64,000 nucleotides of DNA from Chroococcidiopsis sp. CCMEE 29 (GTDB lineage: Bacteria; Cyanobacteriota; Cyanobacteriia; Cyanobacteriales; Chroococcidiopsidaceae): the NCBI RefSeq assembly GCF_023558375.1, contig NZ_CP083761.1, forward strand, positions 1,291,001 through 1,355,000, in the 5' to 3' direction. The notes under the pieces were generated by a model, which was given only the letters and a program-made list of their open reading frames with translations, had not been told where the DNA came from and did not search any database. A program made the translations under genes and the position numbers. Positions 3,717-14,312 of this stretch are shown piece after piece (the stretch's first letter is position 1; each line of letters opens with the position of its first letter).

Positions 3717-5066
3717 CTAACCCGACAAGCGAATGGTGAAAGTGCTACCCTTGCCCAACTCACTCTGCAACTGCAAGCTACCGTTGTGTGCCTGAACGAT
3801 CGCCTGAGCGATCGCCAGTCCCAATCCAGAGCCACCAGTATTTCGGGAGCGATCGCTATTGACGCGGTAGAATCGATCAAAAATCCGTTTCTGCTCATCA
3901 GGCGTAATTCCAATGCCTGTATCTTGGATCTGAATCAGAGCTTGGTGGTTGCTACAGCCGAGGATGACAGTTACCAGACCACGTTTAGGGGTGTATTGGA
4001 TGGCATTAACAATTAAGTTAGACACCAGACGATAAAGCTGCTCTTCATCCCCTAAGACATGCAGTAAGTTTTGCACCCGGAAATCAGTATGTAACTCTAC
4101 ACCTGCGGCGATCGCCAATGGTGCCAATTCTTCTACTAAGTCGCTAACCATATCATTCAAACAACACATCTGGCGACGCATCGGCAGTGCTTGCCGCTCC
4201 ATGCGAGCTAGTAGTAGCAAATCGGCAACTAGCTGAGTTAGCCGCTGATTCTGACGATCTATAGTGCTGAGGATGTCCCGTGCTTCTGGCTCAAACAAGT
4301 GAGGTAACCGTAGCGCTGATTCCACTGTCGCCTGGGTAGCAGCTAAAGGGGTCCGCAGTTCGTGGGCTGCATCGGCTGTAAACTGTTGGATTTGCCTGTA
4401 GGATTGGTAAATCGGTTGCATGGCTCTGCCTGCTAACCACCAGCTAGAACCGCCTACCAAAATCATCGCAATTGGCAAACCTAGGAATAAAATCAATGTC
4501 ACGTTAGCGAGATAAGCGTCCAGTTCTTTTAGCGATCGCCCCACTTGCAGGTAGCCCCAAGAATGATTGTCCTGAGTATGCAGAGCTACAGAAATTTGCT
4601 GATAGCGATCGCCTTCAGCGTCTTTGAGAATTTGCCAACGCTGGGGTGAACGGGTAGTTGTACTGACATCTCTTGATAAACCTTGGGGTTGAAATCCAGC
4701 TAGGGCAACCAAGCGTTCTGAATGATCTACTAACCGGATGTAGTAATCGCCTTGGTGAATTGCACCTAAATTATGACGCTCAGAATTGGTCAGCTGGGTA
4801 TTACAGCTAACTTCAACTAGACAAACATTGGGCAAAAGCCTTTTAGCCGCTGGTTCCAAGCGTCCCGGCTGCTTCAAGGTTGGTTCCAAACTGTCATGCA
4901 GTGTTCCAGCGACTGTCTCTAGCTCTGCGTCGATTGTAACCCAGTGAGCATGAGCGATCGCCTCATAAATACCGAATCCACACAGGCTGAGAATCACACC
5001 CATGACTGTCGCATACCAGCTAGCTAATCGCCAGCGAGTCAGCGCAAAGAGTTTATTTTGATTCAT
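3717..5066 (-). CDS. rppB: Membrane sensor histidine kinase, partner of RppA (RppB-like)
   Basis: 449 residues. The order is membrane segment (about 13-36, YATVMGVILSLCGFGIYEAI), periplasmic sensor region (about 37-190), second membrane segment (about 191-213), a short HAMP-like linker, the phosphoacceptor box FTADAAHELRTPL (His about 239), the N box LVSNLIVNAIQYTP, and ATP lid motifs DTGIGI and GGSGLGLAIAQ. The sensor part contains two cysteines (CLVEVSC) and His residues, which could bind metal, but this is inference. Its ATG overlaps the end of rppA by 14 bases, so the two are translationally coupled. The copper-type neighbours suggest metal sensing. RppB/NrsS relatives respond to nickel or redox state. 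Confidence 0.88.
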   Translation of the reverse strand: MNQNKLFALTRWRLASWYATVMGVILSLCGFGIYEAIAHAHWVTIDAELETVAGTLHDSLEPTLKQPGRLEPAAKRLLPNVCLVEVSCNTQLTNSERHNLGAIHQGDYYIRLVDHSERLVALAGFQPQGLSRDVSTTTRSPQRWQILKDAEGDRYQQISVALHTQDNHSWGYLQVGRSLKELDAYLANVTLILFLGLPIAMILVGGSSWWLAGRAMQPIYQSYRQIQQFTADAAHELRTPLAATQATVESALRLPHLFEPEARDILSTIDRQNQRLTQLVADLLLLARMERQALPMRRQMCCLNDMVSDLVEELAPLAIAAGVELHTDFRVQNLLHVLGDEEQLYRLVSNLIVNAIQYTPKRGLVTVILGCSNHQALIQIQDTGIGITPDEQKRIFDRFYRVNSDRSRNTGGSGLGLAIAQAIVQAHNGSLQLQSELGKGSTFTIRLSG

Positions 5067-5757
5067 GGTTCAGGCTGAGACGATATCCGAAACCATAGAC
5101 GGTTTCAATTAAGCGATCGCAGTCTTTCTCTGCCAGTTTGCGTCGCAACAAACGCATTTGAGCTGCCACCACATTACTGATTGGTTCTGCCCCCACTTCC
5201 CATAGCTGATCGATAATCTGGTCGCGGGTGACAATCTGGTTAGGGCGTTTCAGGAAATACTCTAACAGCTGAAATTCCTTGTTCGTTAGGGATATAACCT
5301 GCTGCTCACCCATGGGTTTTTGGCAGTAAAGCGTTCGAGTACCGTAATCAAGCGTAAGGTTTCCGACTTGCAGTTGTTGAGGTTGAATTTGAGGCGATCG
5401 CCGCTGCAATGCTCGCAACCGCGCCAGCAGTTCTGCCATGCCAAACGGCTTCACTAAATAATCATCCGCTCCAGCATCTAGCCCTGCCACCTTATCTTCC
5501 ATCCGATCTTTAGCTGTCAGCATCAATATGGGTAGAGGATCGCCTTGGTGGCGCAGCCTTTTACACAGTTCTAATCCTGACAGTCCTGGCAGTAACCAAT
5601 CGAAAATAGCTAGCGTATATTGCATCCACTGGGCTTCTAAATAGTTCCACGCCTCAATGCCGTCTAGCACCCAGTCCACTACATAAGCTTCTTGATTTAA
5701 GGTTCGCTTAATTGCAGCGCCTAAATCTGGCTCATCTTCAACTAAAAGCACCCTCAT
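5053..5757 (-). CDS. rppA: OmpR-family response regulator RppA
   Basis: 234 residues from MRVLLVEDEPDLG. The receiver domain (about 1-120) has the acidic pocket EDEPD, the phospho-acceptor Asp in AIFDWLLPGLSG and the conserved Lys in DYLVKPF. The winged-helix DNA-binding domain (about 135-230) has LTNKEFQLLEYFLKRPNQIV and VVAAQMRLLRRKL. The WLLPGLSGLELC and VVAAQMRLLRRKL segments match cyanobacterial RppA. The start at 5757 was chosen because the longer frame (to 5829) runs into the right end of the tnpB element. That element sits directly upstream, so the original promoter may have been displaced. It is a candidate for binding the TTCAT-N6-TTCAT boxes in this region. Confidence 0.88.
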   Translation of the reverse strand: MRVLLVEDEPDLGAAIKRTLNQEAYVVDWVLDGIEAWNYLEAQWMQYTLAIFDWLLPGLSGLELCKRLRHQGDPLPILMLTAKDRMEDKVAGLDAGADDYLVKPFGMAELLARLRALQRRSPQIQPQQLQVGNLTLDYGTRTLYCQKPMGEQQVISLTNKEFQLLEYFLKRPNQIVTRDQIIDQLWEVGAEPISNVVAAQMRLLRRKLAEKDCDRLIETVYGFGYRLSLNHESK

Positions 5758-5825: not shown

Positions 5826-7004
5826 TCAACCAGTCAACTTATCAATTAAGTTCTCACTCGATTGACAGAGGTTGGTCTGTCCTTGGGCGTTAGTTTGGGC
5901 GTGTCCCGCCCTACTTACTATTTCTAATCTTCTAGCCAAAAGCACTTTTGCAGCGTTCTCGTCGCGACAAAGACTTGCACCACAACTACAAACATGAGTC
6001 CTAGTGCTGAGACTTTTGTTGACAATTTGACCGCAAGAACTACATTCCTGGCTACTCCATTGTGGAGGGACTGGAACAACTATCTTGCCAAATATTTGAC
6101 CGTAGTATTCCAGCCAGTTAAAGAATGTTCGCCACGCGGCATCGCTGATACTTTTGGCGAGATGGTGATTTTTCACCATATTCCGCACTCTCAATGCCTC
6201 GAACACCACGACATCATTAGAAGTCACTACGCACCTTGCCAACTTCACGGCAAAGTCTTTACGCTGGCGCGATACCTTGAGATGCTTTCTTCCCAGTTTA
6301 TTGATAGCCTTCTTTCTTTTATTCGAGCCTTTAACTTTACGGCTTACTCTATGCTGCAAACGTTTTAAGGCTTTCTCCGACTTACGGAGATGGCGAGGGT
6401 TTTCGATCTTTGCCCCGCGATTGTCGGTATAAAAGTGGAGCAAACCAACATCCAAAGCAGCTACCTGCTCTGTCGGTTGAATTTCCTCCCTCCTCCTGTG
6501 TTGAATACAAAACTGTGCGTAATATCCATCAGCTCGTCTAACTACTCTTACCCGCTTGATTTGTTCTATCGCGTAGTAGTTAAGGTCAGTTGCACCAATC
6601 ATGCGAAACGTGCCAGCCTTAAATCCGTCAATGAATGCGATCGATTGTCTATCTTCGGACAGCTTATAGCCGCTAGTTTTGTACTCAACAGAACGGGCTT
6701 TTTTAAACTTGGGAAATCCCTTCTTCTTAACAGAAGGATTTTTGCAGTTGTCGTAGAATCGTTTAATCGAAGTCCACGCTCGTTCGGCACAAGCCTGACG
6801 CGCCATCGAGTTAAGTTTTCCCGCTCATTCGTACTCGGCAGCTAATTTCTTGCAGAGGCGAGACAAGTCATATTGTCCGACACCTTGGTTATCCATCCAG
6901 TATCGAACACACTTGTTGCGGATAAAAGAAGCCGTCCTAATCATCTCATCGACGATCTGAAACTGTTTATCCGAGCCTCTAAGTTTGGCTTCAAGTACGA
7001 ACAC
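5826..7004 (-). pseudogene. tnpB: tnpB (IS200/IS605, OrfB-type RNA-guided nuclease), broken by one nonsense codon
   Basis: The reading frame starts near GTG 7004 (VFVLEAKLRGSDKQ), continues through IRTASFIRNKCVRYWMDNQG and AAEYE, and meets TGA at 6825-6827. It then continues in the same frame with AGKLNSMARQACAERAW to the end. The family has Trp at that point (EYEWAGKLN), so a single TGG-to-TGA change explains the stop. The remainder keeps the RuvC residues (LDVGLLHFYTD; FEALRVRNM; CRDENAAKVL) and the zinc finger (CSSCGQ...CSCG). Full length would be 392 residues. An internal ATG at 6806 could yield a 326-residue form lacking the N-terminal RNA-binding part. No tnpA is adjacent. Confidence 0.85.
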
Positions 7005-7261: not shown

Positions 7262-7618
7262 TTATGCTGCCATTGCTGTAGCCATCTGGCGACAAGTCTC
7301 AGCACAACGGCGGCAGGACGCAGCGCAGCGTTGACAATGGTCATGATCGTGTCTCTCGCACTCAGCGGCACAGCGATCGCAAGCTTCAGCACAGACACTG
7401 CACATTTGACCATGAAGATCTGAATTGCGAGCCATGAAACGAGAGCACAGATCGCAGGTATCAGCACAATCGCGGCACCGCTTGATACATTCAGCCATCA
7501 TCTGTACCATATCGCTATCCAAGCAGGCAGTGGCACAGTTTTCGCAATCACGTAAGCAATCAAGACACGCCTGAATGCAAGTTTCAAGTAAGGATTGATG
7601 AGATTGAGATGTTGTCAT
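7262..7618 (-). CDS. Four-helix-bundle copper-storage protein (Csp/DUF326), Cys-rich
   Basis: 118 residues containing 21 cysteines, mostly in C-x2-C, C-x3-C and C-x6-C spacing along predicted helices (ETCIQACLDCLRDCENC, AECIKRCRDCADTCDLC, MCSVCAEACDRCAAEC, HCQRCAASCRRCAETC). This is the pattern of the cytosolic copper-storage protein Csp3, where Cys residues line the inside of a four-helix bundle and bind many Cu(I) ions. No signal peptide is present, which favours the cytosol. The start ATG at 7618 has GGAAG upstream. It lies between the two-component genes and the DUF305 lipoprotein, supporting a copper role. Confidence 0.85.
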   Translation of the reverse strand: MTTSQSHQSLLETCIQACLDCLRDCENCATACLDSDMVQMMAECIKRCRDCADTCDLCSRFMARNSDLHGQMCSVCAEACDRCAAECERHDHDHCQRCAASCRRCAETCRQMATAMAA

Positions 7619-7753
7619 AACTTTCTTCCGAAATCTTTACATGCAAAATGAAGCAGGAAGTATGCTTTTGCAGTTTTACTTTATGAAGTTGCAAGTACAA
7701 TCTCTTCTCTCTAATGGCGGGTTGCTTATTTCTTACTGTAGAGATACAAGGAT

Positions 7754-7769
7754 TTCATACCAGCTTCAT
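7754..7769 (+). promoter_or_regulatory. TTCAT-N6-TTCAT direct-repeat box, copy 1
   Basis: TTCAT-ACCAGC-TTCAT with 11-bp spacing, one helical turn, typical of OmpR-family sites. It is followed by TTTTTTATG, giving a 26-bp match in layout to the boxes at 7848 and 14297. The binding protein is not known from sequence; RppA is the nearest candidate. Confidence 0.5.
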
Positions 7770-7847
7770 TTTTTTATGCTTAAGTGTTTTAGCTGATACC
7801 CACTTAAAAATATTTAATATGATTTTTTGCTGGTTAAGTACAAGAAC

Positions 7848-7863
7848 TTCATCCTAATTTCAT
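7848..7863 (+). promoter_or_regulatory. TTCAT-N6-TTCAT direct-repeat box, copy 2
   Basis: TTCAT-CCTAAT-TTCAT, identical over these 16 bases to the box in front of the efflux operon (14297-14312, other strand). It lies about 150 bp before the DUF305 gene and is followed by a possible -10 (TATAGC) near 7900. Confidence 0.6.
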
Positions 7864-8016
7864 TTCTGTATGCAAGACTAAACTTTTAGTGTTTTCTATA
7901 GCTAGTTGAACAAATTTGCCTAAGTCAACAGCTAGCTAACAAGCGAAGGTACTACACTTGACTCTCTAGCTGACTGAAGAGTTGATAATAGCAGGAGATT
8001 AACTAATAAGTCTTAA

Positions 8017-8730
8017 ATGGATATCAAGTTTATGCAACCGATGAAAACTAGCTGGTTAGCGCTAACCCTTGTAGCGATCGCCTCGACTACAGGTGGGTTT
8101 CTCACAGCTTGTTCTGGTGTCTCCTCGAACGTCAGCCAAGCTCCAAATACCACAGCACCCAACGCTGATGGTATGCAAGGGATGGAGCATGGAAGCGGCA
8201 TGAATCATAGCATGGCAATGGATTTAGGACCTGCCGATGCTTACTACGATCTGGGATTCATTGATGCGATGAGATTACATCACCGCGGGGCGATCGCAAT
8301 GGCTGAAGAAGCACAGCAAAAATCGCAACGCTCCGAAATCAAACAATTAGCAGGCAACATTATTGAAACTCAAAGCAGAGAAGAAAACGAACTGCTACGA
8401 AAGTGGCGGCAAGCTTGGTATCCCGAAGCGGGCGATGAATTTGTTACTTACGGTGGTGAGGTTAAACCTGTAGTTCCTATGTCAGAACAACAAAAGCAAA
8501 GCATGACGATGCTTGAGGATCTAGGATCTGCCGATGCCCAGTTCAACCTGCGATTCATGAATGCGATGATTGCTCACCATGAAGGTGCTATAAGCATGGC
8601 TCAAGATGCACTGAGTAAATCTGAGCGCCCTGAAATCAAAGAATTGGCTCAAGAGATTGCCACTTCCCAACAAGCAGAGATTGAGCAAATGAAGCAGTGG
8701 CGAACAGCCTGGTATAAGCAGAGAGGATAG
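8017..8730 (+). CDS. DUF305 lipoprotein, CopM-like periplasmic copper-binding protein
   Basis: 237 residues. The signal peptide ends in a lipobox (FLTAC), giving a lipoprotein. A Met/His-rich stretch follows (GMQGMEHGSGMNHSMAM), then two DUF305 repeats, each with the pattern F-x-D/N-AM-x2-HH/HHEGA-x-x-MA (about 87-135 and 186-235; FIDAMRLHHRGAIAMA and FMNAMIAHHEGAISMA). The two halves look like an internal duplication. In Synechocystis the DUF305 protein CopM binds copper outside the cell and is encoded with the CopRS two-component system. That parallel and the neighbours suggest the same role. An alternative start is the ATG at 8041 (MKTSW), which gives a more typical signal peptide. Confidence 0.85.
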   Translation: MDIKFMQPMKTSWLALTLVAIASTTGGFLTACSGVSSNVSQAPNTTAPNADGMQGMEHGSGMNHSMAMDLGPADAYYDLGFIDAMRLHHRGAIAMAEEAQQKSQRSEIKQLAGNIIETQSREENELLRKWRQAWYPEAGDEFVTYGGEVKPVVPMSEQQKQSMTMLEDLGSADAQFNLRFMNAMIAHHEGAISMAQDALSKSERPEIKELAQEIATSQQAEIEQMKQWRTAWYKQRG

Positions 8731-8814
8731 ATGAATTCAGTTGTTAGTTCTCAAATATTATAGTAATCCTGACAACCGAGTAAATCGTATTAGTCTGCTT
8801 TTTGAGCAGACTTT

Positions 8815-9324
8815 CTATCTTTTAAAGGTGAAGCGACCATTCACCTTTTCACCATTAATCTCAGAAAGAACGACAACTTTATACTCTCCAGGCGTCTGCT
8901 CAGGTAGTAAAGCAGCGTAGTGTTTACCCGCAGCGTCATAGGTAAGATTTAAAGTTTTTTGGCTACCAGTAGGTGATTGTACTTCAGCTGTCACCTTAGC
9001 GTTAGGAATTGCTTTATGATTAGCACCTTCCTGCAAATAAAAATCCAGGTGAGTGCCATTACTTTCCGGAAGAGCAATCAATTCTAAATGATACTTTCCT
9101 GATTCAATCACCTGACCACCTTGATTCTCGTTAGAATGCCCAGTTGCACTCACCTGATTACCTTGATTCTTACTAGGCTGACTAGTAGTCTCACTCGCCG
9201 TTTCTGAAGGTGAAGCAGCCGAATTGTTTTTTGGATTCGTTACCTGTGTTCCATTACTACAAGCTCCCAGAAAAACCAGTCCTAAACTGCCCACAAATAA
9301 CAAACTTGAACTAAGCAATTTCAT
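8815..9324 (-). CDS. Lipoprotein with C-terminal YtkA/FixH-like beta domain
   Basis: 169 residues. The signal peptide has lipobox VFLGAC (Cys about 22), followed by a Ser/Thr/Asn/Gln-rich linker (about 25-75). The compact C-terminal domain (about 77-169) has SGKYHLELIALPESNGTHLDFYL, AKVTAEVQSPTGSQ and PGEYKVVVLSEINGE, resembling YtkA/FixH-like domains found with heavy-metal transport systems. It is the gene just downstream of the RND pump on the same strand (43 bp gap), so it is probably the last gene of the efflux operon. It may be a periplasmic metal-handling partner (inference). Confidence 0.6.
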   Translation of the reverse strand: MKLLSSSLLFVGSLGLVFLGACSNGTQVTNPKNNSAASPSETASETTSQPSKNQGNQVSATGHSNENQGGQVIESGKYHLELIALPESNGTHLDFYLQEGANHKAIPNAKVTAEVQSPTGSQKTLNLTYDAAGKHYAALLPEQTPGEYKVVVLSEINGEKVNGRFTFKR

Positions 9325-9366
9325 TTGTTTCTCCTCTTCCTTTGTGTCCTTTGTGTCCTTTGCGGT

Positions 9367-12300
9367 TCAAATCTTCCCCTCTGCTACTCCCACATCAGAC
9401 ACCCAAGCCTTCCTCTTAGGCACCAAAAGCTTCCCAAACTGTGTATACAAAGCCGGAAGCACCAGCAACGTTAAAGCCGTAGACGTAAATAATCCCCCTA
9501 GCACCACCACCGCCAACGGTTGCAGAATTTCTTTACCCGCCCCACTCCCGATCGCCAGTGGCAGCATTCCTAGTGCCGATGTCAAAGCCGTCATCAAAAT
9601 AGCTGTTAGCCGTTCCATCGAACCCTCAACCAAAACTTTCTGTAAGGGCATACCAGTTGCCAGCTTATTGTTGTAGTTATCAACTAGCAGCAGACCGTTG
9701 CGGGTAGCAACACCAAACAGGGTGATAAATCCCACCATTGAGGCAACAGAAAGAATGCCACCGCCAACGGCAACAGAAAAGATGCCCCCAGTCAATGCCA
9801 AAGGCAAATTCAGCATAATCATCACAGTTGCCCAGATTGATTTGACCGCGAAGTACATCAAGATAGCGATGACAATCAGCGCCAGAGTGCCAAATACAAG
9901 TAAGTTTTGAGTAGCTCGTTGTTCTGATTCAAACTGACCTCCGTATTGAATAAAGTAGCCGTTAGGTACTTGCAGCTGTTGGCGCACTTGAGCTTGAATG
10001 TCTTCAACTACGCTGCCCAAATCTCTACCAGCAACGTTGGCAGAGACGACAATTAGGCGGGAAACGTTTTCGCGGTTAATGGTGTTAGGACCAGTCCCAT
10101 AGTCGATTTGAGCGACTTGAGCAAGGGGAATTTTGGTACCAGTGGGGGTATTAACGAGCAAGTTGCGGATAGTGTCAAGGTTGTTGCGTGCTTCTTCCTG
10201 TAACCACACCACCAAGTCAAATAACTGTTGTTGTTCTAGCACTTGAGATACTACTCGCCCATTCAATGCCGTTTCGACGATTTGTGAGAGTTGACCAACC
10301 GTCAGACCATAACGGGCAGCGGCGGAGCGGTCAAACTGAATTTGTACCTGTTTAATTGGCACTTGGGGTTCTAGTTGCAGATCTACAACACCGGGAATAT
10401 TGCTGATGACATCTCGGGCTTGAGCACCGAGACGGCGTAATTCTGGGAGATCGGCACCGAAGATTTTGACAGCGATCGCACTCCTGACTCCCGACAGCAC
10501 CTCATCCATCCGGTGAGAAATAAAACCGCCAATATTAGGCGCAACTCCAGGCAACTTAGCAAATTCTTCCCGCAGCTTCTCAATACTCCCCTCTCTGTCC
10601 TTTATCCCCGCCTCACTCAGCTCAACATCCAAGTGTCCTAAGGTGACACTGCCTGCATCCGCATCTCCCGGTGCTCGACCGGAGCGTAACTGCACCAATT
10701 CAAACCGAGGATCATCCTTGAGGGCATCCTGCATTGCCAACCCTGCTCGATTCGTCATTTCTAGAGAAACACCTGGGTAGAGATTGATAGTGTTAACGAG
10801 CGATCGCTCCTGAAACTCCGGCAAGAAGACCCGCCCCAAACTTGGCAGAACAATCAGTGAAGCGATAAATGCAGCAACAGCGATCGCCAGGATAATTTTG
10901 GGGAATTGCAGGGAAAATCTCAGCAGGGGGCGGTACAGCCCTTGGAAAAAGCGCGAAACCCAGGTTTCATCCTCTGGTAACTGCTGATTTGCTAATAAAA
11001 TGGCACATAGCGCTGGAGAAAGTGTTAGCGCTACAAAAGTCGAAGCCAAAATTGACAGTAAATACGCCACTCCCATCGGCGCAAAAATCCGACCTTCCAC
11101 CCCAGTCAGCATGAAAATCGGTGCGAACACCACGGCGATAATTACTGTTGAAAACAGCACACTGACCCTTACTTCCACCGAAGTGTCATAGACAACCTGG
11201 AACGGTGGTACTGGATTACCAGCCTGTTGATTTTTCCGCAACCCTCGGTAGCAGTTTTCCATGTCCACAATCGAGTCATCCACCACCGAACCAATTGCCA
11301 CCGCTAGTCCCCCTAGCGTCATCGTGTTGATGCCCTGACCAAACAAATTCATTAGCATCAAGCCAATGAGCAAAGACAGAGGAATGGCGCTGAGGGTGAT
11401 AACAGCAGTGCGCCAATTCATCAGAAACATCAGCAGGATGATGGAAACGATGATGATACCATCGCGTAGAGAATCTCGAACGTTATCAATGGAGGCATCA
11501 ATAAAATCTGCCTGACGGAAAGTAACGATGACAGTCACATCTGCAGGCAAACTGGGTTTAATCTCCGCCATCGCCGCCTCCACTGCTTTAGTAACGGTGG
11601 GAGTATCAGCTAGCGGCTGTTTGTTAACCATCAGTGCGATCGCCTGTTTGCCATTCAAACTGGCATCGCCACGCTTCAAGGCTGCACCAATGCGGACATC
11701 AGCTATATCTCCCAGCAGCACTGGCGTGCCATTGCGTGCTGTCACAACAGATTTCTCTAAATCTGCTATTGATTCAATTCTCCCGATACCTCGGATTAAC
11801 AGTTCCTGATCTGGACGAATCAGAAATCCCCCAGCAGCATTGGTATTAGCTGCTTGTGCTGCTTCGGTGACATCTGCTAAAGAGACATCAAAAGCTTGCA
11901 ACTTGGCAGGGTCAACCAGTACCTGATACTGACGGATATCTCCCCCATAGGCGATTACCTGAGTCACGCCTGGTACAGCTAGTAGCCGATTGGTAATAAT
12001 GTCGCGGTCAACCAGTTGCCGCAAGTCCATCAGAGAAGTAGGGGCGGGTTTATCGAAAATTTCATGCTGTTGCCTGGCATTCTGGTTAAACTCGCCCGTA
12101 CTGAGTGAGGTGTTCTCCCCTGCAACGCTGAAGGCATATTGAATCACAGTGCCAATGGGAGATGAGATCGGGGAAATTTGCGGCGTTTCGATGCCTTCAG
12201 GTAATTTGGTTGCAGCTTGTTGCAATCTTTCTGTTACCAGTTGGCGGGCTTGGTAAATATCGGTGTCCCAATTGAAAGTGACTTTCACCACAGAAATGCC

Positions 12301-12564
12301 CACAGCGGAGGAGGAGCGCACGGTTTGTATTCCTGGAGTACCGTTGATGGCGCTCTCGATAGGCAGGGTAACGAGCGATTCAACTTCTTCCGGGGCTAGT
12401 CCCGGTGCTTCTGTTTGAATCTCAACTTGGGGAGGAGCAAAGTTGGGAAAGACATCCAGAGGCATCTGGGATACAGTGATAAATCCCCAAACTGTGACGA
12501 TAATCGCACCAATCACAACTAACCAGCGCTGGGCAATAGACCACTTGAGGATGGCGTTGAGCAT
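9367..12564 (-). CDS. Heavy-metal efflux RND transporter, CusA/CzcA family
   Basis: 1065 residues, the normal length for the inner-membrane pump of a tripartite metal exporter. Visible features are the first membrane helix (WLVVIGAIIVTVWGF), the porter start (MPLDVFPNFAPPQVEIQTEAPGLAPEEVE), a TM4 region with GSVVDDSIVDMEN, a second large periplasmic loop, and the closing TM set (MVGFITLFGVATRNGLLLVDN; ALGMLPLAIGSGAGKEILQPLA). Between IQYAFSV and TSLMDLRQLVDRDI lies an extra segment of about 22 residues (155-176). It is encoded by one copy of the palindromic repeat and is absent from the usual alignment. It lies 24 bp after the adaptor gene. Copper or silver is the likely substrate by context. 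Confidence 0.92.
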   Translation of the reverse strand: MLNAILKWSIAQRWLVVIGAIIVTVWGFITVSQMPLDVFPNFAPPQVEIQTEAPGLAPEEVESLVTLPIESAINGTPGIQTVRSSSAVGISVVKVTFNWDTDIYQARQLVTERLQQAATKLPEGIETPQISPISSPIGTVIQYAFSVAGENTSLSTGEFNQNARQQHEIFDKPAPTSLMDLRQLVDRDIITNRLLAVPGVTQVIAYGGDIRQYQVLVDPAKLQAFDVSLADVTEAAQAANTNAAGGFLIRPDQELLIRGIGRIESIADLEKSVVTARNGTPVLLGDIADVRIGAALKRGDASLNGKQAIALMVNKQPLADTPTVTKAVEAAMAEIKPSLPADVTVIVTFRQADFIDASIDNVRDSLRDGIIIVSIILLMFLMNWRTAVITLSAIPLSLLIGLMLMNLFGQGINTMTLGGLAVAIGSVVDDSIVDMENCYRGLRKNQQAGNPVPPFQVVYDTSVEVRVSVLFSTVIIAVVFAPIFMLTGVEGRIFAPMGVAYLLSILASTFVALTLSPALCAILLANQQLPEDETWVSRFFQGLYRPLLRFSLQFPKIILAIAVAAFIASLIVLPSLGRVFLPEFQERSLVNTINLYPGVSLEMTNRAGLAMQDALKDDPRFELVQLRSGRAPGDADAGSVTLGHLDVELSEAGIKDREGSIEKLREEFAKLPGVAPNIGGFISHRMDEVLSGVRSAIAVKIFGADLPELRRLGAQARDVISNIPGVVDLQLEPQVPIKQVQIQFDRSAAARYGLTVGQLSQIVETALNGRVVSQVLEQQQLFDLVVWLQEEARNNLDTIRNLLVNTPTGTKIPLAQVAQIDYGTGPNTINRENVSRLIVVSANVAGRDLGSVVEDIQAQVRQQLQVPNGYFIQYGGQFESEQRATQNLLVFGTLALIVIAILMYFAVKSIWATVMIMLNLPLALTGGIFSVAVGGGILSVASMVGFITLFGVATRNGLLLVDNYNNKLATGMPLQKVLVEGSMERLTAILMTALTSALGMLPLAIGSGAGKEILQPLAVVVLGGLFTSTALTLLVLPALYTQFGKLLVPKRKAWVSDVGVAEGKI
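12038..12101. repeat. 64-bp palindromic interspersed repeat, copy 1, inside the RND pump gene
   Basis: The left arm is GTAGGGGCGGGTTTATC and the right arm GGTTAAACTCGCCCGTAC. It shares arms and length with copies at 16694, 33356 and 45153. It is translated on the minus strand as part of the porter region without breaking the frame. Confidence 0.8.
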
Positions 12565-12565
12565 A

Positions 12566-12601
12566 TTCTAGGAACTAGGGATTAGGGGTTAGGGGCTAGG
12601 G
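12566..12601. repeat. Heptamer tandem repeat (CCCCTAA type) at the end of the adaptor gene
   Basis: Degenerate tandem units of GGGGTTA/GGGATTA/GGGGCTA. On the minus strand the adaptor gene reads into it, and the repeat supplies the last codons (SPSP) and the TAA stop at 12589. It resembles the short tandemly repeated heptamers described in cyanobacteria. Confidence 0.65.
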
Positions 12602-14232
12602 GACTTATTACTAATCGCTTCGTGCCCATCGCCTACACTGGCTGATTGCAGTAGAGGCAATTCGTGACTAGTTCCTACTGATGGTTGACGGCTAACGGGT
12701 TGAGTGCGCCGACCTAACCAGAAGGCACCAGCGGCGATCGCACCTCCAACTGGAATCACCACCCACCAAGGAACTGAAGCTTCTTTGTTTTGCTGCTCCC
12801 CCTGCTTCCCCTGCTCCCCCTGCTTCCCCTGCTCCCCCTGCTCCCCCTGCTCTCGAAAGCCGCCCCGCAACGATTGGGCATAAAGCTGCATTGCGCCTTG
12901 AGTAACTATGCGATCGCCCTCAAACAGGCTACTCTTAACCTCAACTGTGTCGCCGGATAATTGACCTAAAGTGACTTCTACTGGTTCATAGGCATTGCCA
13001 TTTTGCACATAGACCAGTTGCCTACCATTAGCCTCAACCACAGCAGCGTGAGGAATTGTCAAGATCTCTGTTGGTGTTTGAGTCGTTAACACTTCTAACT
13101 CAGCAAACATCCCTGGCTTCAACAACTGGCTAGAGTTATTCAGCTCTGCTTGTACCGGAACAACCCTTGTGTCTCCCACGGTTGAGCCAATTAAAGAAAT
13201 TTGTCCGCTAAAGGTGCGATTGGGTAAACTGGCAACTTGTACTCGGATTTGCTGACCTGTCTTTACTTTGTCCAAGTCTTTTTCGTAGATATTCGCTGTA
13301 GCAAAAACCCGACTGTCATTCAAGATGGTCATTATCGGTTCACCAGCTTCCTCGACCGATTCTCCTAAAGTGATTTCCCGGTCTGCCACTGTACCAGCAA
13401 TTGGGGCAGCTACGGCAATCTGTCCTTTAGCATTAGCGCGGCTTCCTAGTTGTTGCAGTCGGGCTTCATAACCAGCGCTACTCAGGCGCAGCCGAGACTG
13501 TGCTACTTCGACAGCGGATTGGGCGCGTTTGAGCTGGGCTTGGGCTTCTAAAGCTGGCAGTCGGCTGGTAGCTTTGGCAGCGATCGCTCTAGCCTCTGTC
13601 AATTTAGTTTCTGATTCTTGCATTTGTCGGCGCGGGATCGCTCCAGCTGCTTGCAATTCTCTATCTCGGTCATATTGTTCTTGAGCGAATGCCAGATGGC
13701 TTTGTGCTTGTCGGATATCAGCCGCCACCAACTGCTGCTGGCGCTCATAATTCGCTTTTGCTAGCTGCAAATCTGCTTCCGCCTCTTGCAAATCTGCCTG
13801 TGCCTCTGCTCGTTTTTCTGCGGAGTTTACGCGCAGTTGTGCCAATTCTGGACTCGATAAAACGGCGACAGTTTGACCTTTGTTCACAAAGTCACCGGGC
13901 TTTACCAGCAGTTCTACCACAGTGCTGTTGAGGGGAGCAGTCACTTTGACTTTTTGATTGGGCAAGGTTTCAATTTGACCGGTAGTTTTAATGCCTACAG
14001 CTAACCGCTGACGCTGAATCTGCTCAACTTTAATTCCCATCCGTTGGACAGTTTTTTCATCAACCTGAATAGAATTAGCAGTTTGACTGGCTGCGGTTTC
14101 TGGGTGGAATTCGTCTCCGTGTCCACCGTGAGCTAGAACAGCTGCTGGAGTCGTTAATAACAATAGGCTCAGGCAGACTTCAGAAACACAACGGATTGCT
14201 GTAGGTGGTTTAGACCAATCAGGGATGCCCAT
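12589..14232 (-). CDS. Periplasmic adaptor (membrane fusion) protein of the metal RND pump, CusB/CzcB family
   Basis: 547 residues. It has a signal peptide (about 1-34) and a His-rich mature start (HGGHGDEFHPE). The barrel and lipoyl-like halves are KVTAPLNSTVVELLVKPGDF and IAVAAPIAGTVADREITLGE, separated by a long coiled-coil hairpin (about 125-265) with LQEAEADLQLAKANYERQQQ. A beta-barrel domain follows. Near the end, a Gly-Glu-Gln/Gly-Lys-Gln run (about 460-481) is encoded by a G-rich DNA repeat. It is followed by an unusual C-terminal membrane helix (VPWWVVIPVGGAIAAGAFWLG). A TTCAT-N6-TTCAT box sits 65 bp upstream. It is the first gene of the adaptor-pump-lipoprotein operon. Confidence 0.9.
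   Translation of the reverse strand: MGIPDWSKPPTAIRCVSEVCLSLLLLTTPAAVLAHGGHGDEFHPETAASQTANSIQVDEKTVQRMGIKVEQIQRQRLAVGIKTTGQIETLPNQKVKVTAPLNSTVVELLVKPGDFVNKGQTVAVLSSPELAQLRVNSAEKRAEAQADLQEAEADLQLAKANYERQQQLVAADIRQAQSHLAFAQEQYDRDRELQAAGAIPRRQMQESETKLTEARAIAAKATSRLPALEAQAQLKRAQSAVEVAQSRLRLSSAGYEARLQQLGSRANAKGQIAVAAPIAGTVADREITLGESVEEAGEPIMTILNDSRVFATANIYEKDLDKVKTGQQIRVQVASLPNRTFSGQISLIGSTVGDTRVVPVQAELNNSSQLLKPGMFAELEVLTTQTPTEILTIPHAAVVEANGRQLVYVQNGNAYEPVEVTLGQLSGDTVEVKSSLFEGDRIVTQGAMQLYAQSLRGGFREQGEQGEQGKQGEQGKQGEQQNKEASVPWWVVIPVGGAIAAGAFWLGRRTQPVSRQPSVGTSHELPLLQSASVGDGHEAISNKSPSP
12791..12852. repeat. G-rich 9-bp-based repeat read as Gly-Glu-Gln units in the adaptor gene
   Basis: Tandem GGGGAGCAG/GGGAAGCAG units (minus strand). 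Because the unit is 9 bp the frame is kept, giving GEQ/GKQ tripeptides. Related tracts occur at 18187, 19500, 27312, 33249 and 56352. Confidence 0.8.
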
Positions 14233-14296
14233 GATTATGAAATTCCTTGAGTCCTGAAAAAGAGGCTGGAGCTTTAGTTGAGTCTTTCATAGAAAA

Positions 14297-14312
14297 ATGA
14301 AATTAGGATGAA
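14297..14312 (-). promoter_or_regulatory. TTCAT-N6-TTCAT direct-repeat box upstream of the efflux operon, copy 3
   Basis: On the minus strand it reads TTCAT-CCTAAT-TTCAT followed by TTTTCTATG. The 16 bases are identical to the box at 7848, and it lies 65 bp before the adaptor ATG at 14232. A shared regulator for the DUF305 gene and the pump is implied. Confidence 0.65.

Follow-up and report, generated by a model that had tools for sequence, protein, structure and literature searches.

In Synechocystis, the two-component system CopRS controls the copMRS and copBAC operons in response to copper, and three copM relatives of Anabaena respond to the same metal (passages of PMC4335983). The two operons are the only CopRS targets given for the conditions tested in the passages of a 2014 paper (PMC4182526), which also place a putative CopR site, TTCATN4-5TTCAT, at the cop promoters, in the region separating nrsRS from nrsBACD and 5' of mntC. 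The 72-nt copM promoter is described as containing two direct repeats in the excerpts of PMC4890671. In our literature search, PMC4182526 is, among the matches listed, the only paper on cyanobacteria and metals that contains the string TTCAT. Here, we analyze a stretch of 64,000 nucleotides from Chroococcidiopsis sp. CCMEE 29 (positions 1,291,001 to 1,355,000 of NZ_CP083761.1, hereafter the window), in which a cluster of copper-type genes is preceded by boxes of the form TTCAT-N6-TTCAT.

The cluster shares with the CopRS regulon of Synechocystis sp. PCC 6803 six gene types, a related regulator and kinase, the N6 box before copM and copB, and the small number of targets (Table 1). It differs from that regulon in that copM is not part of a copRS operon, copM and copC stand tail to tail, and copRS lie beyond csp (a label only, used here for a gene of a Cys-rich protein) and a TnpB fragment situated between them; csp, with an inverted box, is an addition. 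Judged by its sequence, the cluster is a real and conserved copper-type regulon of a known kind, namely the CopRS regulon of Synechocystis. A sequence-only reading of the window had proposed a metal-response regulon under the OmpR-family regulator encoded in the cluster, a proposal that both the comparison and the literature support, with copper as the most likely metal. The NrsR/NrsS nickel system of Synechocystis has in common with the cluster the NCBIfam equivalogs RppA and RppB and the TTCAT repeats at the nrs promoters (passages of PMC4182526), whereas the target genes and the protein identities of the window favour the copper branch, and no NrsD-type permease was found among the eight window proteins searched. 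The ManSR control of mntCAB likewise represents the two-component control of a metal transporter, and a probable sister box with TTTCAT half-sites at 11 bp would belong to it. It differs in the ATTNN spacer, in its manganese transporter genes and in its mode of action, since ManSR is described as a repressor of mntCAB, with other direct targets left open, in the passages of PMC7020235.

Exact copies of TTCAT-N6-TTCAT occur three times in the window, at the places that the sequence-only reading had listed, the third one being on the minus strand and oriented towards the adaptor gene. All three are intergenic, two of them 5' of the DUF305 gene (copM) and one 5' of the adaptor gene (copB). This placement is as previously described, with the correction that the distal box, by its flank, probably belongs to csp. 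Boxes 7848 and 14297 have the 16-mer TTCATCCTAATTTCAT in common, which is the identical core that had been noticed. Taken from the final T of each box, the sequences continue with TTTTTTTATG, TTTCTGTATG and TTTTTCTATG; a T-rich run ending in TATG is indeed present in each, and TATG is better understood as the end of a spacer followed by the TG of a putative extended -10 element.

The bare repeat is common, not diagnostic, and constitutes weak evidence. The 6.39-Mb genome contains 28 exact copies, and the motif with up to two mismatches occurs 78 times in the window versus 80 times expected from shuffles; the mismatch-tolerant motif, showing no enrichment, was dropped as a test. The rate outside the window (25 copies) predicts 0.25 exact copies per 64 kb, with a Poisson probability of 0.002 for three or more. 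The abundance of bare motifs, and of mismatched versions at the frequency of shuffles, would suit the view that the boxes are functionless chance repeats. That view is hardly credible, as the same spacing and sequence recur 5' of the same genes in many cyanobacteria and an extended profile singles out the window sites; for boxes 7848 and 14297, the comparison is strong evidence to the contrary.

The strong evidence for the boxes is comparative. In 73 copM genes of other cyanobacteria, sense N6 repeats were found 62 times, in 49 of the genes, while no other sense spacing between 0 and 20 was seen more than once, and the antisense N6 repeat was seen once. For this count, 66 of 70 loci were entered (L numbers denote loci) and L146-L149, weak matches outside the cyanobacteria, were omitted; the window is excluded, eight non-cyanobacterial rows are kept apart, and L110 and L138, with short upstream DNA, are scored as having no box. 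The 62 sense repeats place the half-sites at the 11-bp pitch of OmpR-type direct repeats. The box is absent from all eight non-cyanobacterial copM relatives, for one of which the upstream DNA spans 147 nt. Of 39 copB genes, 32 have a sense box; repeats with any other sense spacing between 0 and 15, or with N6 in antisense, were absent.

A 36-bp profile was derived from 72 different boxes of other organisms, none of them from the CCMEE 29 genome. Only exact TTCAT-N6-TTCAT repeats nearest to the gene were used for training, so that the TTCAT columns are fixed by choice. The scores of the three window boxes (Table 1) are followed at a distance by the next window site (-3.9), and compare with 17.1 to 51.2 for the training boxes themselves and with 9.4 as the maximum reached in 100 dinucleotide-shuffled versions of the window. 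The other 25 exact copies in the genome score 0.7 or less; the concern that the motif is frequent elsewhere thus applies to the bare repeat and not to the extended box. The consensus of 81 copM and copB boxes of other organisms reads ATTTCATCcTaATTTCAT, with TG 7 nt further on, one base, and a conserved nAnACT. The specific form of the element, as judged from conserved letters, is the extended box ATTTCATCYTRATTTCAT-N7-TG-N-nAnACT, in which TG-N-nAnACT probably represents an extended -10 element with its hexamer starting 10 bp past the box.

A sequence model built from 48 of the 72 training boxes, aligned without gaps, was also used to search the CCMEE 29 genome; 150 of 3552 first-look candidates were scored, and weak further sites may be missed. 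Box 14297 (33.6 bits) and box 7848 (33.0 bits) came out on top, followed by a match of 15.7 bits, and the distal box 7754 was the last of 16 matches, with 10.9 bits. Only the first two exceed 16 bits. The further boxes that a genome scan had been expected to reveal did not appear as strong sites among these 150 of 3552 candidates, and a wider regulon in this genome was discarded on the same count. Eight matches of 15.5 bits are one identical 27-base sequence at eight places (L212-L219), which resembles part of the box and probably lies inside a repeated element. Three TTCAT units in a row at 11-bp pitch were observed at C1:1890103-1890129 (L015) and C1:3794121-3794147 (L025).

The strict pattern TTTCATNNNNATTTCATNTNNNNNTG, which recovers only one of the three window boxes, is present in 42 of 292 genomes of the phylum, and its reversed control gave no match in the rows. 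It replaced an earlier strict pattern that included TATG, which occurred in 24 of 292 genomes but had eight reversed-control matches. With a threshold of our own choice (E<=1e-95), RppA is found in 56 of the 292 genomes. It is present in 39 of the 42 strict-box genomes versus 17 of the 250 others and, within the order of the window, in 38 of 39 versus 13 of 44; related genomes are not independent in these counts, and P values for the association of box and RppA overstate it. An RppA gene lies within 12 kb of 41 of the 70 strict boxes.

The RppA protein of the cluster, correctly recognized from the sequence as an OmpR-family regulator, combines a receiver domain (PF00072, 96.1 bits) with a winged-helix domain (Trans_reg_C, PF00486, 80.2 bits) and is a relative of CopR. 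In a tree of 61 regulators (58 different), it falls together with the CopR of the Synechocystis plasmid pSYSX into one clade of 50 members with a support of 100/99. Members of this clade have, with few changes, the C-terminal helix SNVVAAQ(M/V/I)RLLRRKL, which we take to be the recognition helix; eight other compared regulators of the same genome lack it, the nearest one reading SNVLAALIRLLRRKI (L003). The annotation pipeline PGAP (Prokaryotic Genome Annotation Pipeline) names the regulator and kinase of pSYSX RppA and RppB, and the name RppA therefore includes CopR. NrsRS of Synechocystis presumably bear the names RppA and RppB as well.

Several observations weigh against a copper-responsive regulon under CopR. 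The exact box is absent from 24 of the 73 copM genes (two with less than 180 nt of upstream DNA), 17 of the 56 RppA genomes are without the strict pattern, and three box genomes are without RppA at the threshold. In the window, copM and copRS lie on opposite strands, so that there is no copM-copR-copS operon; this arrangement is not taken as defining. Gene order varies, as a genome of the same family carries copM-copB-copA-copC-rppA-rppB, all pointing the same way, and its boxes 5' of copM and copB score 31.6 and 45.8. A sense box stands 5' of only 1 of 20 RppA-type genes in the fetched loci and none was found by profile 5' of copRS in the window, where positive autoregulation as in copMRS may be weakened. 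The spacer is written N4-5, not N6, and the TTCAT repeats at mntC and nrs showed no response in the strains used, according to the passages of PMC4182526. In the sequence of pSYSX, both cop promoters have an N6 spacer, with TTTCATCCTGATTTCAT 5' of copM and TTTCATCTTGGTTTCAT 5' of copB. The copM promoter of Synechocystis is also induced, less strongly, by Zn, Cd and Ni (excerpts of PMC4890671). Finally, an NrsR-like second RppA of a Synechocystis-like genome, encoded next to a different RND pump, belongs to the same clade and has nearly the same helix.

With such a relative in the CopR clade, the regulator alone is no proof of copper. The main signal for the boxes might instead be nickel, cobalt, zinc or silver, sensed through a relative of NrsR (RppA) rather than CopR, an explanation with which the second RppA and its helix, the TTCAT repeat at the nrs promoters and the weak response of the copM promoter to Zn, Cd and Ni would all be compatible, and between which and CopR the family name, borne by the CopR of pSYSX too, does not discriminate. 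It is the target genes and the identities to CopR and CopS, rather than the helix, that support the metal assignment. The gene content is that of the cop set with an additional Cys-rich gene of copper-storage type, and the regulator and kinase are closer to CopR and CopS of pSYSX (67% and 54% identical) than to the other RppA/RppB pair (61% and 50%), which probably corresponds to NrsRS; control by a metal other than copper is accordingly improbable.

We consider it very probable that the boxes are binding sites of the cluster-encoded OmpR-family regulator CopR (annotated RppA) and respond to copper. Periplasmic copper would activate the kinase CopS (RppB), which would phosphorylate CopR. The phosphorylated regulator would then bind the two TTTCAT half-sites, head to tail and one helical turn apart, in place of a -35 element, and recruit RNA polymerase to the weak extended -10 (TG-N-nAnACT), with the hexamer 10 bp past the box. 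By this route copM would be switched on through box 7848 and copB-copA-copC through box 14297, and box 7754 would most likely serve csp, read in the opposite direction. In activator sites of the PhoB/OmpR type, head-to-tail half-sites at 11 bp replace the -35 element, and the -10 follows about 10 bp downstream; the window boxes have the same layout, with a different half-site and a different regulator. The scheme builds on the sequence, spacing, conservation and gene context of the boxes and on the kinship to the Synechocystis genes, and it predicts binding, phosphorylation, the copper signal, activation, the -10 element and the direction of any effect on csp.

Table 1. Boxes, putative promoter elements and genes of the copper-type cluster (window coordinates)
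Feature	Position	Strand	Basis
CopR-type box of copM (proximal), TTCATCCTAATTTCAT	7848..7863	+	Profile 43.8; second in own-genome search, E 3.2e-7
Putative extended -10 of copM, TG-C-AAGACT	7871..7879	+	7 nt past the box; conserved columns
CopR-type box of copB-copA-copC	14297..14312	-	Profile 39.6; first in own-genome search, E 2.0e-7
Putative extended -10 of copB, TG-A-AAGACT	14281..14289	-	Consensus of aligned boxes
Distal box, most likely of the divergent csp, in reverse orientation to csp	7754..7769	+	Profile 15.8; csp-type flank
csp-type promoter flank beside the distal box	7720..7753	-	TGTATC where relatives show TATA-like letters
copM, DUF305 lipoprotein with two HH repeats	8017..8730	+	NF049983 (CopM) 96.5 bits, cut-off 90; PF03713
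copB, RND periplasmic adaptor	12589..14232	-	Family matches; 48% to the pSYSX adaptor
copA, CusA/CzcA-type RND pump	9367..12564	-	TIGR00914, 848 bits; 72% to the pSYSX pump
copC-like lipoprotein	8815..9324	-	60% over 100 aa to the pSYSX protein following copA
copR (RppA), OmpR-family response regulator	5053..5757	-	NF041734, 415.9 bits; 67% to pSYSX CopR
copS (RppB), sensor kinase	3717..5066	-	NF041735, 718 bits; 54% to pSYSX CopS
csp, Cys-rich DUF326 protein of copper-storage type	7262..7618	-	DUF326, 48.7 bits, cut-off 20.4
TnpB fragment, IS605 type, outside the regulon	5826..6806 (region to 7100)	-	In-frame stop upstream

Assignment of the distal box is based on its relation to the divergent csp gene. 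The fetched loci contain 17 csp-type genes, of which 13 have an inverted N6 box, one has a sense box and three have none. The inverted box nearest to the estimated csp start lies at -151 to -168 in 12 genes and at -178 in one, values counted from estimated starts, from which the annotated or longest-frame start deviates by 15 nt in some genes (L069, L080); in the window, the far end of the distal box is 151 nt from the csp start. On their csp side, the csp-linked boxes are bordered by a conserved flank that includes a TATA-like element at a distance of 5 nt, and no such flank is seen in the consensus of copB boxes or of copM boxes without csp. A profile of this flank, with the box itself left out, finds its best match in the window exactly at 7753(-), with a score of 21.1 that is slightly below the lowest of the 13 training flanks (22.8), the next site scoring 8.8. 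In L036, the box is found at the usual csp distance, and there is no open frame of more than 75 aa in the direction of the box between 1600 and 3950. On the basis of the flank, of the inverted boxes at csp genes and of L036, box 7754 probably belongs to csp, in inverted orientation.

Alternatively, boxes 7754 and 7848 could constitute tandem promoters of copM, with csp being independent of them. The distal box also faces copM and is followed by TATG. Moreover, the distance between csp and its inverted box is not constant in all cases: counted from the estimated start, it is about 67 nt for a 38% identical csp relative in another genome of the family (L228). However, the letters at the forward -10 position of box 7754, TTAAGT, are a poor fit, its csp-side flank is the best of its type in the window, and an inverted box accompanies csp even where copM is not a neighbour (L036, L037, L072, L080). 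Tandem promoters of copM are therefore unlikely, and the allocation of box 7754 to csp is preferred.

The protein encoded by csp scores 38.4 bits against the Csp1-type family TIGR04401, below its cut-off of 100, and is not counted as a member of that family; it is 88-89% identical to plasmid proteins annotated as four-helix bundle copper-binding protein. In a literature search on csp-type proteins in cyanobacteria, the terms 'four-helix bundle copper' and 'DUF326' were absent among the matches listed. CopM is 39% identical, over the best segment, to CopM of pSYSX. The copC-like lipoprotein had no family match in the family-model searches, and its counterpart, the pSYSX protein 3' of copA, is taken as CopC from the name of the operon. 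A second DUF305 gene of the genome, at C2:318442-319461 (L010, L225), is followed directly by an OmpR-family regulator and a kinase. The locus was rejected as a further candidate, with no TTCAT-N6-TTCAT in L010, no profile match in L225 and a regulator that is 35% identical.

The plasmids analyzed comprise 14 of 30 listed matches, nine of which are typed as conjugative, and pSYSX, which was fetched by accession. Two of them, from Gloeocapsa PCC 7428 (L036) and Chroococcidiopsis CCNUC1 (L037), carry copper islands with five and seven CopR-type boxes, respectively. A box also stands before an iron-uptake porin gene in L036, and before gorA and a response-regulator gene in L037.

The same half-sites are found in a second type of repeat. 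The sequence TTTCATATTNNTTTCAT is common to three other repeats of the CCMEE 29 genome: C1:2643804 (L019), before an operon of an ABC-3 type transporter; C1:1741151 (L014), inverted before a GDT1/UPF0016 pair; and C1:2974164 (L022), roughly 320-330 nt 3' of another GDT1 gene and outside its promoter. Since this probable sister box combines TTTCAT half-sites with the 11-bp pitch and occurs three times at or near genes of manganese-type transporters, a manganese-type regulator might be thought to bind the window boxes as well. The spacers argue otherwise, being mostly CYTRA-like at copper genes and ATTNN at manganese genes. Moreover, the copper profile gives 0.0, -5.8 and -7.8 for the three manganese-type boxes of the genome, and the strict copper box tracks the RppA genomes. 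Binding of the window boxes by the manganese regulator is thus very improbable, and CopR is retained as their predicted regulator.

When 243 genomes of the order were scanned for a longer pattern of the sister box, TTTCATATTNNTTTCATNTT, it was found in 63, and the reversed control gave 11 matches. The pattern occupies 89 places, 87 of which were read (81 loci, L229-L309 range); the two left out are sites of the CCMEE 29 genome that had already been seen. The pattern lies in sense orientation upstream of MntA at 36 of the 87 places and inverted upstream of GDT1a at 30. At a further 16, the stretch contains a relative of Mnt or GDT1 that fails the rule of distance or identity; at 14 of these the estimated gene start coincides with the box or is no more than about 50 nt away, and in L273 the sole candidate is an MntA relative (41%) encoded on the opposite strand. 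One place is near a GDT1c gene, and four have none of these genes. NCBIfam did not single out a manganese regulator among three RppA-family paralogues. We infer that the sister box belongs to ManR. The GDT1-type proteins Hmx1/2 are described as constitutive importers, unchanged by manganese excess in Synechocystis, in the passages of PMC11649195. The CopR boxes are in sense orientation at copM and copB and inverted at most csp genes, and the manganese boxes are in sense orientation at mnt and inverted at GDT1. This parallel tentatively suggests that the orientation of the TTTCAT repeat may set the mode or sign of control, activation versus repression, and that the manganese box puts the GDT1/Hmx-type genes under the manganese regulator, although we regard both as somewhat doubtful.

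From what was a guess on a single genome, the analysis derives a defined copper box of cyanobacteria, ATTTCATCYTRATTTCAT-N7-TG-N-nAnACT, which is suitable for scans. The spacer is N6 in sequences for which one paper gives N4-5, and a regulator named RppA is linked to copper genes. Two extensions are exposed, an inverted box at genes of copper-storage type and a sister box at the genes of manganese import and of GDT1 type. On the tentative reading of the sister box given above, GDT1/Hmx-type genes would be under the manganese regulator in many cyanobacteria, in addition to mntCAB, which is the one established direct target in the passages cited.

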